Of a DNA stretch of 64,000 nt, positions 32,925 to 62,400 are shown piece by piece. The notes under the pieces were generated by a model. It was given only the letters and a program-made list of their open reading frames with translations. It did no database searches and had not been told where the DNA came from. The position numbers and the translations under genes are program-made. Every line of letters starts with the position of its first letter. Position 1 is the stretch's first letter. Origin of the DNA: Dysidea avara (taxonomy: Eukaryota; Porifera; Demospongiae; Dictyoceratida; Dysideidae); contig NC_089282.1 of the NCBI RefSeq assembly GCF_963678975.1, forward strand, positions 1,302,001 through 1,366,000, read 5' to 3'.

Positions 32925-48564
<15,640 letters not shown>

Positions 48565-50347: not shown

Positions 50348-53300
50348 ATGCATATGGAAAGTTCGGACGAAGATGAAGAAGAGGCAGCTCCCTATAGTTC
50401 TGTTAATATGCACGAGGTAGAAATATTGCTGTGTGGTGATGCATATCCCATGACTAATGTCGCGGTGTAGCCAGAAGAACTATCGCTGTTCAGACAACAA
50501 TGGCAACTGGAACTACAACTACAGTCGACGAATAAAGTTCAAAATGCCCTGTCCGTAGACGCTGAAACAAAAGTAGGTGTGAATTAATTTTCGAATATTT
50601 TTACGGAATTTATTTAAAGGCTAAGACTTTCTTCAGTCAAGGAATAGCTGCAGAACGACATGGCAACCACTATCAAGGTATTAAATGAATATCGACTTCT
50701 GTTACCTTTTATCACCATGAATACACTACACTTCACACACACAGCCATTTCATATTACCGTCAGGCTATACAGTTAGTACCAGACATTGAACACAAGATG
50801 TGCTATAATGATGCTACTACTAGTGGTACTGGTAAGTCACCTATGGATGTTGTCTGTAGGTATCTTGTGTGCTTTTAATAGAAACACATGAAGTTGGTAC
50901 TAGGTAAGTGTGTGTGTGTGTGCTTGCGTTGTTCGTGTGTGGGTGCTTGCGTTGTTCGTGTGTGCGTGCTTGCGTTGTTCGTGTGTGTGTGCTTGCGTTG
51001 TTCGTGTGTGCGGGCTTGCGTTGTTCGTGTGTGCGTGCTTGCGTTGTTTGTTTGTGCGTGCTTGCGTTGTTCGTGTGTGTGCATGCATGTGTGTGTGAGC
51101 GGTGTGCACTAGTTAATGCTCTTGTCATTTCCATAGTAACCTATCATCACAACTAGTGGAAAACTTCCAGCACTTGTCATTATTTGTGACCTGTTCACCT
51201 GATATTCCCACCACAGTTAGGAGGTTACCATAGTGACTTAGCTGCTTACATGATCTCCACATTACAGCAAGCCCACATCTCATGTCTACCACAAGAAATC
51301 ATGATCACCATCCTCCGCTGGACTGTCTCCTCTGACCTGCACCTGCAGTGTCTTGAACAGGTCTCCATGGTGAGTGTCATTATGGTGATGGTGGGTAACA
51401 TGGATACGCACACGTGTGCACGCATACCACACACCCTCGTGCATTCACATAATAAAAGCTAGCCTTTGGCTTCTATATGCACAACCATGTCTACCATATT
51501 GAGCCACCTGCGCAGTATATACTCAGGCATTATGAGTGCAGTCTTCCTGGGGTAAGTCTGGTACCCCACATGACATGTGTGATGCACTACAGAAACACAC
51601 ACTGCATGTAGCTATGTCTTAATATTGTTGTCACTTATCTTGTAGGTATGCAAAGGCTTTTATTTGTTGGCACGGCAACCTTCAATATGGCGGCTGGCAT
51701 GTACCAAGCTATGGGGCAGAGACTGTGTCCCATCATCTTATGGGGGATCATGGCGACACATGTTCATTACACGACCACACCCTCATTTTCATGGTTCGTA
51801 TTTGTGTACACTTCTTTGTAGAGGACACTTTGAGACCAACCATAATATGGACACTTGACACCCAGACACTTAGGTAAGGTCCAAAGTGTCCTTTAGTACA
51901 TACACTGACCTGGAAAATCAGAACACTATTGGTTGGTCCCAAGGTGTCCTGCTCCCACCATATTTGATGACTACTTAGTATCACACAAACTCTTATAGGG
52001 TTGTACATTAGTGAGTGTTCATACGTGAGACAAGGGGAGGCGTCTCTTGATAGGTTCTACCGACCTTTCCACACTGTTGTATATTATCGTTATCTTCGCT
52101 TCTTCTCTAATGGTAAGCATACACTTTCAGCAAACACCCTCCTAATGACTAGCACCCCAACAGGTCGAGTACTATATCTCACTAGCCCGGAGGACCCGGC
52201 TTCATGTGTGAGTAAGATTAAAGGTTATGGCGATCATCAATCATTGCTTGGTGGCCATTACACCATCTCAGATAATGATGAAGATAGAAGGGTCAGTGTA
52301 TATGTTGATAGTTTAATAGTTGAAGAATTGAAGCTTGAAATTTTCAAACTAAATAGTATTGACTTGCTAAAGGTGTCTTGGAAGGCACTTAATAACAATA
52401 CAGTATTTGATAGGACATGTAACAATGGTGGTCTACAGACCGCTCTAATGTAACATCATCTTGCAAGAGTGCAAACGATTAAAAAACTCACTAAATAAAG
52501 AGCGTGGCACCCGTGAGTATTCATACCATCTCTTTTGGGATGATACTCGTGAGCAAAACGAGTGCCATACCCTTTAATTAGCAAGTTTTTTAATCGTTTG
52601 CACTCTCGCGAGACATTACATTTGAGCAGTACCGTATGATATGGGGTATACACACATTATCAGACCTACTCTTCCAGAGCAGTCACTAAATATTTATGTA
52701 GGTTAAAAAATGTGGCAACTACAATTGTTTCATGGGAATAATCAACTATAGTACATTTCTGATATCCCTTGATAGTATATGGTCTCAGTGTATCACTGAT
52801 GACAATAGCTCAAATACAATACTTCAAAATTTGTTATACTTTTCTAATAACAAAACCTATAATTATGTGTAGGTCGTTCCCAAGTTTTTATTAAGGCTTT
52901 ACAGCACAAGTTGTTGTTAGACAATTTTTTTACATGTTCCCCACTCCTGCTTATCTGCAATGAAACAAGATATTATTAGCTCAACATCAACATGTTGTAG
53001 TCAGGTTATAATAATTATGTGGTCCTTCACAGTTGTCAGTTGTAGTACATGCCCACTGTCTTCAACATTCCCCATTGGCTGGGAGCAACCGGAGACATCA
53101 CCATAGAAACACCAGCAGCAAAATGGAGGTTACTCATGAACAAAATTTCCACATGGTAATAATACAAGTCACTAGTAATTTGCTAGTTTAACATGTTTAC
53201 AGGAGTTTGTGTTAAGGGGGCGTCGATTTAATCAGTTCACTTGGGTTGACCATTACTGCCACACCTTCAACAGGTAGGGGATCCCCTAAAGCTTGTTACA

Positions 53301-56400: not shown

Positions 56401-59400
56401 CAGGTCCAGCAGTCTTATTTTCATTATATTACATTTTCATTAATAGGCCCACCTCATTATTAAGGCCAGTGGCCACATACCACAGGACCAAACTAGTAAA
56501 CTAATACAATGTTCCCTAGGCAAAAAGGCCAGCAGTCAAGTATTGCTGCAAAACTTGCTGCTCTTAAGTGCATATTTAACTGCTGAAAGCTGTACCCATT
56601 ATTCTGGCAGTATACTTCATGTCTCTCTAACCATTATGTCTCAGGAATAATTGGTACAGTGTATGTTCCTACATTTCTCTGTGATAAACTCTACATAGTG
56701 TGTTTAGATCAATTGTTGATTTGTTGAAAACCTCAATAATAAGGTCACTTTGTTTTATGGCCGCATTAACGAGGTTTTCAGTAATAGGGCCACTTATCAT
56801 GGGTCCCATAGATGACCCTATTAACAAGGTTTCACTGAATATGGCTGGGAGCACTTGTATTGAAATTAGTGCTCAAACGATTAATCGGTTATTTGACTAC
56901 TTGGTCGGTATGACACTATTTGATTCATTAATACACTATTCAAATAATCATTAGCACTTTGTACACTGTATTCAGATGGAAACGCCAGCTTGAAACTTGA
57001 GATTGTGAATGAAGTGATGCGTCTGCTGTAAAAATTCTAGTTTAGAAAAGATAGAAATAGCTCTTAGGGTTTACCGTATAGTAAAAAAGTTTGACGGTAA
57101 AAAAGTTTGGCGAATGCCCGCAGTTTGAAAATTGACGAAAAAAACATTGACGATTGGGTGGCTTTTGTGAAATTACGTAATGGCGTACGACAAGGCACGT
57201 GGACTCTTGTAAACTGGTTTGGTCAAACCAGAACCACGTGCTAGTGAAAGCGTGTAGTTTGCTGTAGTCTCCTGCGATGCCAAGATCGTGGTTTCGTTTT
57301 TCAGTGGACTCTAGCAGCAGAGGTTATCATGAGTACCAAAGTATATGGCCGAATCCAACCGCATACGATGAACTTTTATGCGAACGAGAACCTGGAAATA
57401 GTCACGATACACATGCCGTTGCCATCAAGAAATATATTTCTGGAGTACTTTCGACTGTGGGACACGTTCCTAGGAAGATTTCTAAAGTGAGCTCAATCTT
57501 TATAAGGCGTGGTGGCACGATTCAGTGTAGGGTAAATGGGCACCGATGTTATTCAGCTGACCTTGAGCAAGGAGGATTAGAAATTCCTTGTATTTTAACC
57601 TACATTATAGATAACCAAAAGGAATGGGCAAAGACACAGGAAACCATCAATGTAAAGTTGGGCATAAAAACTGCAGATTGTGTGGATGATTTAGTTAATT
57701 TGGACTTTCTTGCTAATGCCAGTGCTGAGTCAACTGCACCGCCAGTTGCTATGGAATCTATAGATGGGTCTGTATCAATGGTGGATTTAACTGCTCAATG
57801 CAGCACTCAAGATCAGGTTGATCAGTCACCACCAAAAAAGAAGCCAAAAAACTTTTGTGAAGAAGACATAATAATGGGCCTAGAACTCTCTGATCTTGAG
57901 ATCAATCTTTCACAGGAGTTGCTAAAAGCTCAATATCCAAAAGTGAGTGCACTTCAGTCTACACTTTTTCAAGAAAGAAATCAGCTTTTTCCAAATGGTT
58001 TCCTCACTAACTGCATCCAAATTGTTCACTGTCAAGCAAGGCATCACTGGGTTACAGCTTCGACTATAAACTGCAAGTTAGGTGAAGTGAAGGTTTTTGA
58101 TACGTTGTTCAATCACTGTGATCAAGAAACAACTGGAATAATTCACAAACTCTTTGCTACAGCAAATTTTCCAAAGTTCACCATAACAATGGGACGTTGT
58201 CAAAAGCAGAAAGGAGGGATGGATTCTGGGCTGTTCTCTATTGCTAATGCTACAGCCTTGGCTTTTGGATTACACCCAAGCAAGCAAAAGTATAAACAGT
58301 CGGCAATGAGAATGCACCTAGTCCGCTGTTTTGCTGCAAAACAAATGACTCCATTTTCAGGGCATGCAATTAAATAATGTGGATATATACCCCACTACTT
58401 CTCATGCTTTGCTATAGTGTGTGTTATGATTCATTAAATAATTTATTGCATTAATAAATTTATCATTAAAATCAAATACTGGTTGAGTTAAAGTAGAATT
58501 CCAGCTTCCCTGAAGCCATTTATAATGATGTCAGGTTTGCTTTTAATGTAGTCATAGCAAGATTTCATCCACCCAGCTCCCAATGGCTTGACTGTGCTAA
58601 GTTTTAAATCAACAGGTTCGTGTTTCGACTCTCCTTGCAACTGTGTACATACTTTCTTGGCATACCAGGTCTGAAACTCGTTTCGTAAGTGAGATTTCAC
58701 TGATTCGTTCACACTCAAATCTAGTGGTTGCAACCTATCGGTGCAGTTTGCTGGAACCAATACAACATTAATGTTATTTTGATCGAGGAGAGTGAGGATT
58801 GCATGAGTACACTGGGCTTTGAAATTATCAAAGGTAAGCAATGCTGGATAATCACTAGCAAGCTTTAATTCTTCCCTCTTCTTATGGATGTATGGTAGAA
58901 TAATGTAGGTAATGTACTCTTTCATCGTGTCCTCATTTGACCAATGATTAGCAGAAAATGTTATGTGCCAATCCGACGGAAAGTCATAATGTGGAAGGCA
59001 ACGTGTTGTTTTCCCTTGATAAACTAATTGAGGTGGCAAAAACTCTCCACTCATGGAACCTGCAAAAACAGCAGTTAGCTGTCTTTTGTCGTCTTTGCCT
59101 ACCAATTCAACCCGTTTTGCCCCTTCTTCAGCCATCGTCCAATCTGAAACTGGAACATAATGTATTCCAGATTGATCATAAGCTCCTTAGGAATTTCATC
59201 CATTGATACCACTACCTCCATGTCTAAAACGTAGTCTCTCTTGATTTCTTCAAAGTCCTCAACAGAGATTTTAGCTTTTGTTGTAGCCTTCCTCCTCACA
59301 AACCCCATTCGCCGTAACAGATACTTTGCCCATCCTTCTGTCAAAGTGATTTGTTGTAATAAGTTGGCATCTTTGTGCATGAGTATACCCTCAGCACTAG

Positions 59401-62400
59401 CTATAACAACAGCAGTGTTGATAACAAGGCCCTTAGCTCTTAGAACCCCAACATACTCCCTGACCTGTTTATCGAGTTCTTCACCCAGCTTAAGTGGTCG
59501 TCCAGTCTTTTTCAGACAGAGTTCTCGTGATTCTTCCTGTTCAGAATCGTCATTCACAGTGCCAACAGATTCATTATTTGCCAAGTCTGCCTTATATTTA
59601 TTCTTCCACCTCCTAACAGTAGGTTCTTTCAAAGACGCAAATTGATCAGGGTATTTGCTGGCAAAATATCTCATCGAAGCGGTTGTTCCAAACTGTGCCG
59701 CTCGCTTTGCGATAGCAAATCTTTGGGCATCACTCACTTTTATGTAGTTACCCCTGCTGGAATCAGCATCACTGGAGGATTTCGTTGACGACAGAGGTTG
59801 TAGCTTAGACAATACCCTTTCATTGGCCGCTTCGATTGCTCCCGGTGGAACTTTGCTGCTTAACAGTCCATGTGGAGCAGGTAGAGCAATATCTTCTGTC
59901 TTCTCTTTTGGTAGCGGTTTGAAATATTGAAGGATAGACTTCATCACAATCCGTCAACGTGGCCACTCGATTGTGATCATGTGATAACTGAAAAGAAAAA
60001 AAAAATGGCGGTAAAAAACTTTGGCGAATCGAACCTTATTCGCCAAATTCGCCAAAGTTTTTTACTATACGGTACCTTGCTCCCTAACAAAAGGTTTCAG
60101 TACTTATTCAATAGAAGTATAAGTTCAAAGAATAATCAAATATTCAGTTGATTTGCTCACAACTATTCGAATAGTAAAAATTGTTATTCGTTTCAGCACT
60201 AATTGAAATGAGTACTGAAATACCACTTGAGTGACATAACAGTGTCTCACTAAATACTGTATAATGGGTTAATTTCAAAATGGAAATTTTCAAAGAGCAG
60301 TTGCTAAAGCAAATTTTGAATGTTTAATTTTCGAATGTTCTACTGTCATGCATCTAGTGCCACAAAAATAAATTTGCAAGTGCGTGCACTAAATTAAGTG
60401 AAGACGGTGTGGTACAATTCAAGTTATTGTATTTAAAAGAAATATGGACTGCTCCATTAGGGGAAAGTTGGTTTTCCCAATGGGAAATGAATAATCTTCA
60501 CAATCGATTTGCCGTGGGTGTGGCCACTGGTTGCAGCATTATTAAAGAAAGTGAAGTTGTTGGCCTGGTGAGCAGATACGGATAATAGATATACATTCTG
60601 TATTTCTTCTACCCGGGATGATAAAATGTGAAGTTTCTGTTAGTGGACAGAATTCATCCAACCTAGCACAAGGCAGCTTTATATTCAAAGAGCTAAATTT
60701 TCATAGAAGCTGTGTTCTTCGAATAATTCGAAAATTAAACTCCTTCAAAAATAACCCACTATACGGCAGGATAATTTTAATGGCTGCTGTAATGTCTAGA
60801 TGTTACAGTAGTGGTGTACACCCTATTGAGGATCATAGACATGAAAAAGAGGGTTAGAGATAAGAATCACAGCCACCATTCAATGCAGGCACTCCACCTA
60901 CACTTCCAATCTCCTCTGGGTAAACACTGTACTGCCAAATGGCATACTGGCAGTTAGCTCTTGTGGTCAATACCATATTTACTTGTTATGTAAGTGTAAA
61001 CTCAACACAGAAACACTTTAGTTTACTTATACACAAATTGGCACACTTCCCACTAACAGACAGTTACGGACTACTAGGGAATTCTGTTACACACATTACA
61101 CACACAACACTCAAGGAGACTTGTAGTCAAGTTAAATCACCTCAAAGAACCATAATATGAATGCTAAAGTGCCTGCCAAGGAATTGAAAAGAAGAAGCAG
61201 GTGCTGCTAGCCGGCTTTACAGAGAATGAGAAACCTGTGTGCTCCGTAAAGAATCTGTTTGCTCATATTTGAAACACTTCTTTATCACTCTTAGTATTTT
61301 AAAAACATTAACAGCATTTAGGCGGTGCCCAACCTCAATATCAAGAATAGTATTCTATAATCACAAACCAATAAATTACAACGCCCAAGTCCCTTCTTTC
61401 AGCCACCCAACACTTTGTGTAACAAAAAACAACAACAAATACTGCATATTTATTCTCACTTGTGATGTAATAAAAAGACTTTGCAACAAGTGACATGTTT
61501 AGTTGTGCAATAATTACATATAGCAAATATGTCACAGGGCTATGATGTCACAGGACTATGATGTCACAGGACTATGATGTCACAGGGCTATGATGTCACA
61601 GGACTATGATGTCACAGGGCTATGTCACATGACCAACCTCTTCTGTTTACCTAGCTAATAAACAAGTCCTTTCATGGCTGTAACTGGATTTTCCCAGCAC
61701 AACGGTATAAAACACACAGAGTGCAATTCCAACACACTGGCGCTTCTATTGTACATTTCATAGTACGATATGCTAATCCTGAAGCGGGCACGCCCACAGA
61801 GAGTCCCATTTCTGGGATAACCAGATAGTTCACGCACTATTGTGGGTTTATTACATGACCGGTAACTCAAAAATAGGGCTATTTTGTTTGTATTTGACTC
61901 TGAGTTGATAGTTATGTTTTGAACAATGATACATTGTTATAGATAGGCTACGACAACCGGCAAGACTGTTGCTGGTTTTTCAGACATGTGGCATGATTCC
62001 ATCATGTGCGTATATGCATGTGTGACACTGGATTTGTGATAAAACCAACCGTGAAGATGGCGATTCAGTAGGAGACAATATAAACCACATACATACAATG
62101 TAACACTTATTTGTAGATAGTTTAGTTGTGGCTGTCTGTTTGTCAAGGCTGTCTGTTTGTCAAGGCTGTCTGTTTGTCAAGGCTGTCTGTTTGTCAAGGC
62201 TGTCTGTTTGTCAAGGCTGTCTGTTTGTCAAGGCTGCCTGTTTGTCAAGGCTGTCTGTTTGTCAAGGCTGTCTGTTTGTCAAGGCTACTTTTAGCATATT
62301 TTGTAGTTTTGTTGTCTTATAATAATTACTTTGTGGTTTTATTTATGTAAACAAAAACAACCCACTCGAGATTGTTAGTCCACAGCATTTATATGGTAAC

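Follow-up and report, generated by a model that had tools for sequence, protein, structure and literature searches.

Transposons of the Tc1/mariner-pogo group are textbook one-gene elements, and the standard pogo plan is a transposase alone. The element described here encodes a second protein. It lies in a stretch of 64,000 nucleotides from the sponge Dysidea avara (NC_089282.1, positions 1,302,001 to 1,366,000; the whole stretch is called the window below) and holds, between one pair of terminal inverted repeats, a DDE_1 transposase gene and an accessory gene whose product combines a HIRAN-like domain with a domain resembling the Ulp1-type cysteine proteases of family C48. From its copies and relatives in the host genome we conclude that a gene for HIRAN plus a CE-clan cysteine-protease-like domain is almost certainly the constant second gene of a branch of cut-and-paste DNA transposons in the pogo lineage.

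The element resembles the pogo lineage (Fot1, TC2, Tigger and canonical pogo) in its TA target, short inverted repeats and DDE_1 domain; its Tc5/CENP-B-like helix-turn-helix match stays below threshold. It differs in the constant second gene, which is convergent to the transposase. The DD35D spacing of its transposase is that of groups 33-40 in PMC7325037, a paper in which 'Tigger' is a polyphyletic label, whose pogo section names no accessory gene and whose main text has no match for 'protease'. The same paper describes ciliate TBE/Tec elements as related to Tc1/mariner and endowed with extra open reading frames (ORFs), but these encode, among others, a zinc-finger protein or a site-specific recombinase, and the elements are not pogo (PMC7325037).

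Ulp1-type domains occur in other groups of transposons. Mutator-like elements that bear one (Kaonashi and others) have a Mutator transposase and a longer target-site duplication, and we know of none with HIRAN. They share with the present element the Ulp1-like domain in a cut-and-paste DNA transposon (cited in PMC2836005). Ginger1, an animal DNA transposon, also encodes a Ulp1 (or OTU) domain, but as the C-terminal part of a Gypsy-integrase-like transposase, and its description names no HIRAN in the passages concerned (PMC2836005). Unlike Ginger1 and the Mutator-like elements, the Dysidea element has a DDE_1-type transposase, and its accessory protein is a separate gene. Some CryptonS elements of oomycetes carry a C48 peptidase as an additional protein; they have a tyrosine recombinase, and the passages on them name no HIRAN (PMC3212892). 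HIRAN itself is shared with HLTF and Rad5. In HLTF it is combined with a SWI/SNF motor and a RING domain (PMC4666394), whereas here it accompanies the cysteine-protease-like domain.

The combination was new to the author of a preliminary description of this DNA. Likewise, among the titles and abstract openings listed by searches of the open-licence literature, none describes HIRAN together with Ulp1 or a pogo transposase. Repbase reports lie outside that scope, and the family may be catalogued without comment there or in subscription papers. A search of viral and prokaryotic contig collections, based on an alignment of 14 accessory sequences (A1), gave 13 and 43 pattern matches, none confirmed; it is uninformative on other animals.

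A second gene between the same ends

A DNA search of the host genome (550.8 Mb, 108 contigs) found 11 full-length places, namely the window element and ten copies at 98-99% identity, plus one interrupted copy (L012 and L015; C4:32842317-32848438) split by an insertion of about 3.1 kb. Both genes are present in all 11 full-length copies. The preliminary description had proposed a pogo-lineage element with a HIRAN plus Ulp1-like gene inside its own ends and had suggested looking for further copies; the ten additional copies, each with both genes between the same ends, uphold this proposal. Ten of the 11 could be cut out cleanly, the other (L011, on C1) being missed owing to an extra end base. 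The accessory frame is open in seven of these ten, the 488-amino-acid transposase frame in seven, and both in six. L011 has both genes, with the transposase in pieces. Over the 12 places of the family, the accessory match is free of stops in eight and the transposase is full-length and free of stops in seven. The window element, which diverges from the other copies by 0.9-1.4%, is a decaying copy of a multi-copy transposon.

The features found are those of Tc1/mariner-pogo elements: a TA target-site duplication, terminal inverted repeats and a DDE_1 transposase with three catalytic aspartates. A direct TA stands at both ends of ten of the 11 full-length copies in different flanking DNA, and the TA duplication first reported for the window copy is among them. 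In L011 one extra base, near locus position 1475, separates the TA from the element at one end. The terminal inverted repeats had been called exact. With the flanking TA included, those of the window copy (57072-57096 and 60050-60074) are instead 92% complementary over 25 nucleotides (nt), and several other copies have 42 nt at 95%. Eight of the ten other copies have 15 extra nt in the right-end region, which are absent from the window copy and two others. Two matches to a 20-nt end pattern lie in the window, against 0.00 expected by chance. Across the genome, a 22-nt end pattern gave 357 and 373 matches against 1 and 0 for the reversed control.

Among 100 listed places of this pattern, all on C1-C4 and without mismatch, the inward-facing end pairs comprise nine at 615-685 bp (for example C4:12704570-12705193 and C4:13417540-13418160), one of 1.24 kb and four of about 3.0 kb. 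One further pair, of 6.2 kb, is the interrupted copy. Judged by their length, the pairs of 615-685 bp are non-autonomous relatives resembling miniature inverted-repeat transposable elements, too short for either full gene. Because they cannot hold either gene in full, these shorter elements with the same ends do not refute the two-gene plan. In two deletion derivatives, L016 (C6:330717-331567) and L017 (C2:54668128-54668979), the first part of the accessory gene continues straight into its last part.

The pairing extends to distant relatives. A search with the accessory protein, in which 112 of 1607 candidates were scored, gave at least 138 matches, merged into at least 111 loci. All 18 divergent relatives (L033-L050, 44-49% identity) have their accessory gene convergent to a related transposase, as do all five more distant picks (accessory protein 33-40%, transposase 44-55% identity). 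The gaps between the two matches in relatives are mostly of the same order as the 110 bp of the window copy. Four of the five distant picks were searched for inverted repeats: L051, L052 and L054 have repeats of 42-49 nt that start at most 2 bases from TACCGTA, and for L053 the search found none.

The reciprocal search points the same way. With the transposase as query there were 1546 candidates, and the 88 matches scored among them show 47-100% identity (the window copy accounts for two, one per half). All 88 have a convergent accessory gene. The link rests on coordinates for 70, with a convergent accessory match among those listed at most 2.5 kb away; for the other 18 the flanks were fetched, and every one holds an accessory gene (tblastn with 13 accessory queries, E < 1e-4). 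With a second query, the distant L053 transposase, the matches numbered 96, in some cases two pieces from a single element, and 92 were linked: 82 through prior flank results or an accessory or HIRAN match among those listed within 3.5 kb, nine by reading the list (one at 3.4 kb) and one by a fetched flank. Four matches have no assigned link (C9:541077, C9:29145826, C1:34281934 and C5:27606574); for the C5 locus the list has an accessory match at a distance of 7 kb. Both transposase searches rank by similarity to this branch and so portray it rather than the genome's pogo elements as a whole. From the accessory side, 42 loci have no transposase among the matches listed; L035, L047 and L049 have one by their flanks, and at least three more are paired through the L053 list.

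It is hardly conceivable that the accessory frame is a separate nested element or stems from a host gene that this copy alone picked up, and such an origin is ruled out by its same convergent place in 11 of 11 full-length copies and beside 88 of 88 transposase matches. The preliminary description had named copies with the same ends and no second gene, together with a nested insertion here, as the result that would overturn it. The gene is present in every full-length copy (11), every divergent relative fetched (18) and every more distant pick (5).

The two genes have also evolved together. In the 16 elements with long frames of both, protein distances for the accessory protein and the transposase are correlated (Mantel r 0.963, p 0.0001, 9,999 label permutations). 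Trees of 13 of these elements show no well-supported conflict; of the 10 inner branches in each tree, 4 are starred in that of the accessory protein and 6 in that of the transposase. The co-evolution that had been suggested as a check was thus observed. Between L034 and L038 the accessory gene has a synonymous rate (dS) of 1.08 and a nonsynonymous rate (dN) of 0.14, a ratio of 0.13; the transposase has 0.77 and 0.08, a ratio of 0.11. The L033/L038 ratios are 0.14 for the accessory gene and 0.09 for the transposase. L033 and L034 are close relatives, so their comparisons with L038 count as one. Near-identical copies give ratios from 0 to 2.0 on counts too small to use, the accessory ratio exceeds 1 for L042/L044 and L042/L047 on 6 and 8 changes, and more distant pairs are saturated. 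At the level of the family, the accessory gene is under purifying selection, as is the transposase.

The accessory protein and its possible role

Reading the accessory protein as HIRAN joined to a SUMO-protease-like domain, as first proposed, stands for the family and falls below threshold for the window copy, which scores 21 bits for HIRAN (PF08797, cut-off 24.7) and 13.6 bits for Peptidase_C48 (PF02902, cut-off 20.7). When 13 members were scanned singly, HIRAN exceeded the curated cut-off in seven and C48 in six; three members (L036, L042 and L054) exceed both. At E 0.01 or better, HIRAN is matched by 13 of 14 sequences and C48 by 11 of 14. The residues invariant in A1 include His257-Trp258, Asp275, Gln311, Asp316 and Gly318, and residue 317 is cysteine in 13 of 14 sequences. 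This H-W...D...Q...D-C-G layout is that of Ulp1-type proteases. The complete His-Asp-(Gln)-Cys set is present in those 13 sequences and lacking in the window copy, where residue 317 is serine. Against the PDB, the A1 profile matched the Ulp1-like structure 6dg4 (E 0.0012), SENP1 (E 0.11) and RickCE (E 0.36). For the N-terminal part, the top five matches of a 13-sequence profile (A2) were all HLTF HIRAN, each weak (E 0.48-0.69). In this alignment HLTF N91 and D94 (the latter by counting) align with N41 and D44, which are invariant in all 14 sequences of A1.

These domains suggest, tentatively and at somewhat less than even chances, that HIRAN docks at the DNA ends or forks of transposition while the protease strips SUMO or ubiquitin-like modifiers there. 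The transposase would bind the terminal repeats and cut at TA, and the free 3' ends would stay within a tight transposase complex after cutting. HIRAN would take the accessory protein to these 3' ends or to fork-like structures created by excision and insertion. Because the transposase would leave free 3' ends in a tight complex, a HIRAN-guided protease would be well placed to strip SUMO, ubiquitin or similar modifiers on site, whether from the transposase, from the clamp or from host proteins of replication and repair. The post-cleavage complex might thereby be freed, or repair biased toward the element. HLTF offers a precedent, in that its HIRAN domain binds 3' ends and is required to evict Cas9 after cleavage (PMC11237066), and mutation of N90/N91 abolishes DNA binding by the domain (PMC4666394). 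The authors of the Ginger1 study proposed that Ulp1 and OTU domains may act on repair during transposition (PMC2836005).

Several points weigh against a HIRAN-guided protease. Six of 13 members miss the Pfam cut-off for HIRAN, and seven miss that for C48. The similarity to HLTF is weak, with HLTF N90 aligned to a glycine and Tyr93 to a histidine. The only structure model (AlphaFold, single-sequence) has a mean predicted local distance difference test score of 30 and was used in no search. For one distant member, L052, there is no C48 match at E 0.1 but an ElaD/SseL-like one (E 0.0015), which stays below the cut-off of that model. The CE clan includes deubiquitinases and acetyltransferases as well. 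Given this mixed clan and the L052 match, SUMO as the substrate is only a guess. Single-gene pogo elements, moreover, transpose without such a protein, and the role of the accessory protein may for this reason be regulatory.

The match of L052, together with C48 above cut-off in just six of 13 members, favours another view of the protease-like domain, namely that it is mainly a binding or regulatory module, for example a repressor or stoichiometric partner of the transposase, or that it is some other CE-clan enzyme. We consider this distinctly unlikely. The predicted catalytic cysteine and its context are retained in 13 of 14 sequences that span 35-98% identity to the window protein, which argues that catalysis has been selected.

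The main rival of docking at DNA ends is anti-silencing, in which the accessory protein would strip SUMO from chromatin or PIWI-interacting RNA (piRNA) pathway silencers at the element and keep its genes expressed, HIRAN serving only for targeting. The Ulp1-like signature and the long co-retention with the transposase would suit this role, and an abstract on Drosophila Panx places SUMO in piRNA-guided silencing. HIRAN, as described for HLTF in the passages cited above, reads DNA ends and forks, not chromatin or RNA, and on balance we think anti-silencing rather improbable.

A stronger version of the end-docking mechanism would make this pogo branch a two-protein transposition machine, in which a HIRAN-guided protease recognises the 3' ends after cutting and unlocks the complex by de-SUMOylation or a similar reaction on the transposase or on clamp and repair proteins. 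In this full form the proposal is unlikely. If true, the accessory protein would act as the transposon's own exit factor, a counterpart of the host HLTF/SUMO-PCNA pathway.

The window copy and neighbouring features

The features of the window copy are collected in Table 1. The preliminary description had annotated a convergent gene of 366 codons, and its frame is indeed uninterrupted. The same scan that found the basic stretch SPPKKKPK found none at this place in several relatives.

Table 1. Features of the element in the window (positions count from the first letter of the window)
Feature	Positions	Strand	Remarks
Whole element with flanking TA target-site duplication	57072..60074		Element proper 57074-60072; based on 11 full-length copies in differing flanks
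Left terminal inverted repeat; its inner half recurs as an internal direct repeat	57074..57115	+	
Accessory gene, 366 amino acids: HIRAN domain, variable linker, Ulp1/C48-like protease domain	57277..58377	+	
HIRAN-like domain, about residues 1-110	57277..57606	+	
Basic stretch SPPKKKPK, residues 184-191	57826..57849	+	Possible nuclear localisation signal
C48-like domain, about residues 200-361	57874..58359	+	
Gap between the two stop codons of the convergent genes, 110 bp	58378..58487		
Transposase gene, DDE_1, catalytic D...D35D	58488..59944	-	Frame broken near 59170
Right terminal inverted repeat and subterminal inverted repeat	60011..60072	-	

The transposase is read from two overlapping minus-strand frames, 58488-59135, which holds the DDE_1 domain (PF03184, 50.3 bits, cut-off 22), and 59099-59947. 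As the preliminary description had stated, it is broken; one short private deletion, at the first catalytic aspartate (D260), shifts the frame. D260 and D376 are invariant in all 16 aligned rows and D412 in all 15 rows that reach it, with 35 residues between D376 and D412. The N-terminal HTH_Tnp_Tc5 match (E 0.0012, 19.2 bits) is below the cut-off of 22.2, and L002 reaches 16.4 bits. Six of seven transposases compared (L002, L013, L051, L052, L054 and L055; not L053) have an N-terminal [IL]xxYFK without a leading glutamine, which presumably resembles a PCNA-interacting motif. The Drosophila pogo transposase reportedly binds PCNA, a lead for which a literature search gave no match.

The accessory gene, too, has decayed. 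It had been called intact, which is true of its frame; its predicted catalytic cysteine is a serine private to this copy, the cysteine being kept in all ten other full-length copies. Compared with six intact copies, it carries 7-8 nonsynonymous and 1-2 synonymous differences on 864:234 sites, a roughly neutral ratio. These changes fit drift after insertion, and selection on this copy is undetectable. An open accessory frame beside a broken transposase had been taken as a sign of selection or of mobilisation in trans, and it would be the pattern expected had the gene been domesticated while the transposase decayed. We regard domestication as very improbable, given the roughly neutral ratio, the private loss of the cysteine and the nearly equal survival of the two genes (8 of 12 against 7 of 12). 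With a neutral ratio and the predicted catalytic cysteine gone, the open frame is no evidence of selection, and selection on this copy is rejected. The window copy can probably do neither job any more, its transposase being broken and its predicted catalytic residue lost. Any further movement would depend on other copies.

Immediately outside the element, a 26-nt inverted repeat (85%) lies on both sides, at 56859-56884 and 60184-60209. The element may have inserted into an older inverted-repeat element. An 85-bp relic at 39197-39281 is 77% identical to the element's left end; no partner end was detected. Tandem arrays are present at 62130-62303 and 50889-51104, with units of 17 bp and 23 bp.

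Other loci and significance

Other DDE_1 transposases of the genome were compared through their 150 strongest matches, scored of 835 candidates. None lies within 4 kb of the accessory and transposase positions used for this comparison. None of the 150 has a C48 match among those listed within 5 kb, which is weak evidence since C48 has low sensitivity in this setting (of its 76 matches, just 14 are near this branch). A HIRAN match among those listed lies within 5 kb of six of the 150, against about 0.27 expected; these are at C2:6703039, C8:18179985, C1:57811639, C11:14970639, C11:14795857 and C14:1008535. The DDE_1 matches beside them are at C2:6701749, C8:18180903, C1:57810366, C11:14971559, C11:14796780 and C14:1010762. 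The six pairs are variously divergent, convergent and tandem, and HIRAN may have been acquired by pogo elements on more than one occasion. Of 100 HIRAN matches listed, 51 have a transposase, an accessory gene or a strong DDE_1 match from the lists close by; the remaining 49 have none.

Another multi-copy Ulp1-like family is made up of about 18 strong and nearly equal C48 matches (E about 1e-30) on many contigs, with open frames mostly of 165 amino acids (for example C1:63779406-63779873); no strong DDE_1 match among those listed lies within 5 kb of any of them. L074 (C8:25954946-25956247) is mitochondrial COX1 in a nuclear copy; its frame contains a single TAG and can be read if TGA codes for tryptophan. 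It has AGA and AGG at positions that we take to be conserved arginines, a codon usage that suggests a non-bilaterian animal such as a sponge or cnidarian.

That a large branch of the pogo lineage has retained, under purifying selection, a gene besides the transposase suggests a dedicated helper on which some pogo elements rely or from which they benefit. The domains of this helper point to DNA-end recognition and cleavage of SUMO or ubiquitin-like modifiers. A functional test needs no reconstruction, because natural copies with both frames open exist (six of the ten cut out). The element thus makes it testable why unrelated transposons, Mutator-like, Ginger, Crypton and now pogo, repeatedly acquire Ulp1-type proteases.

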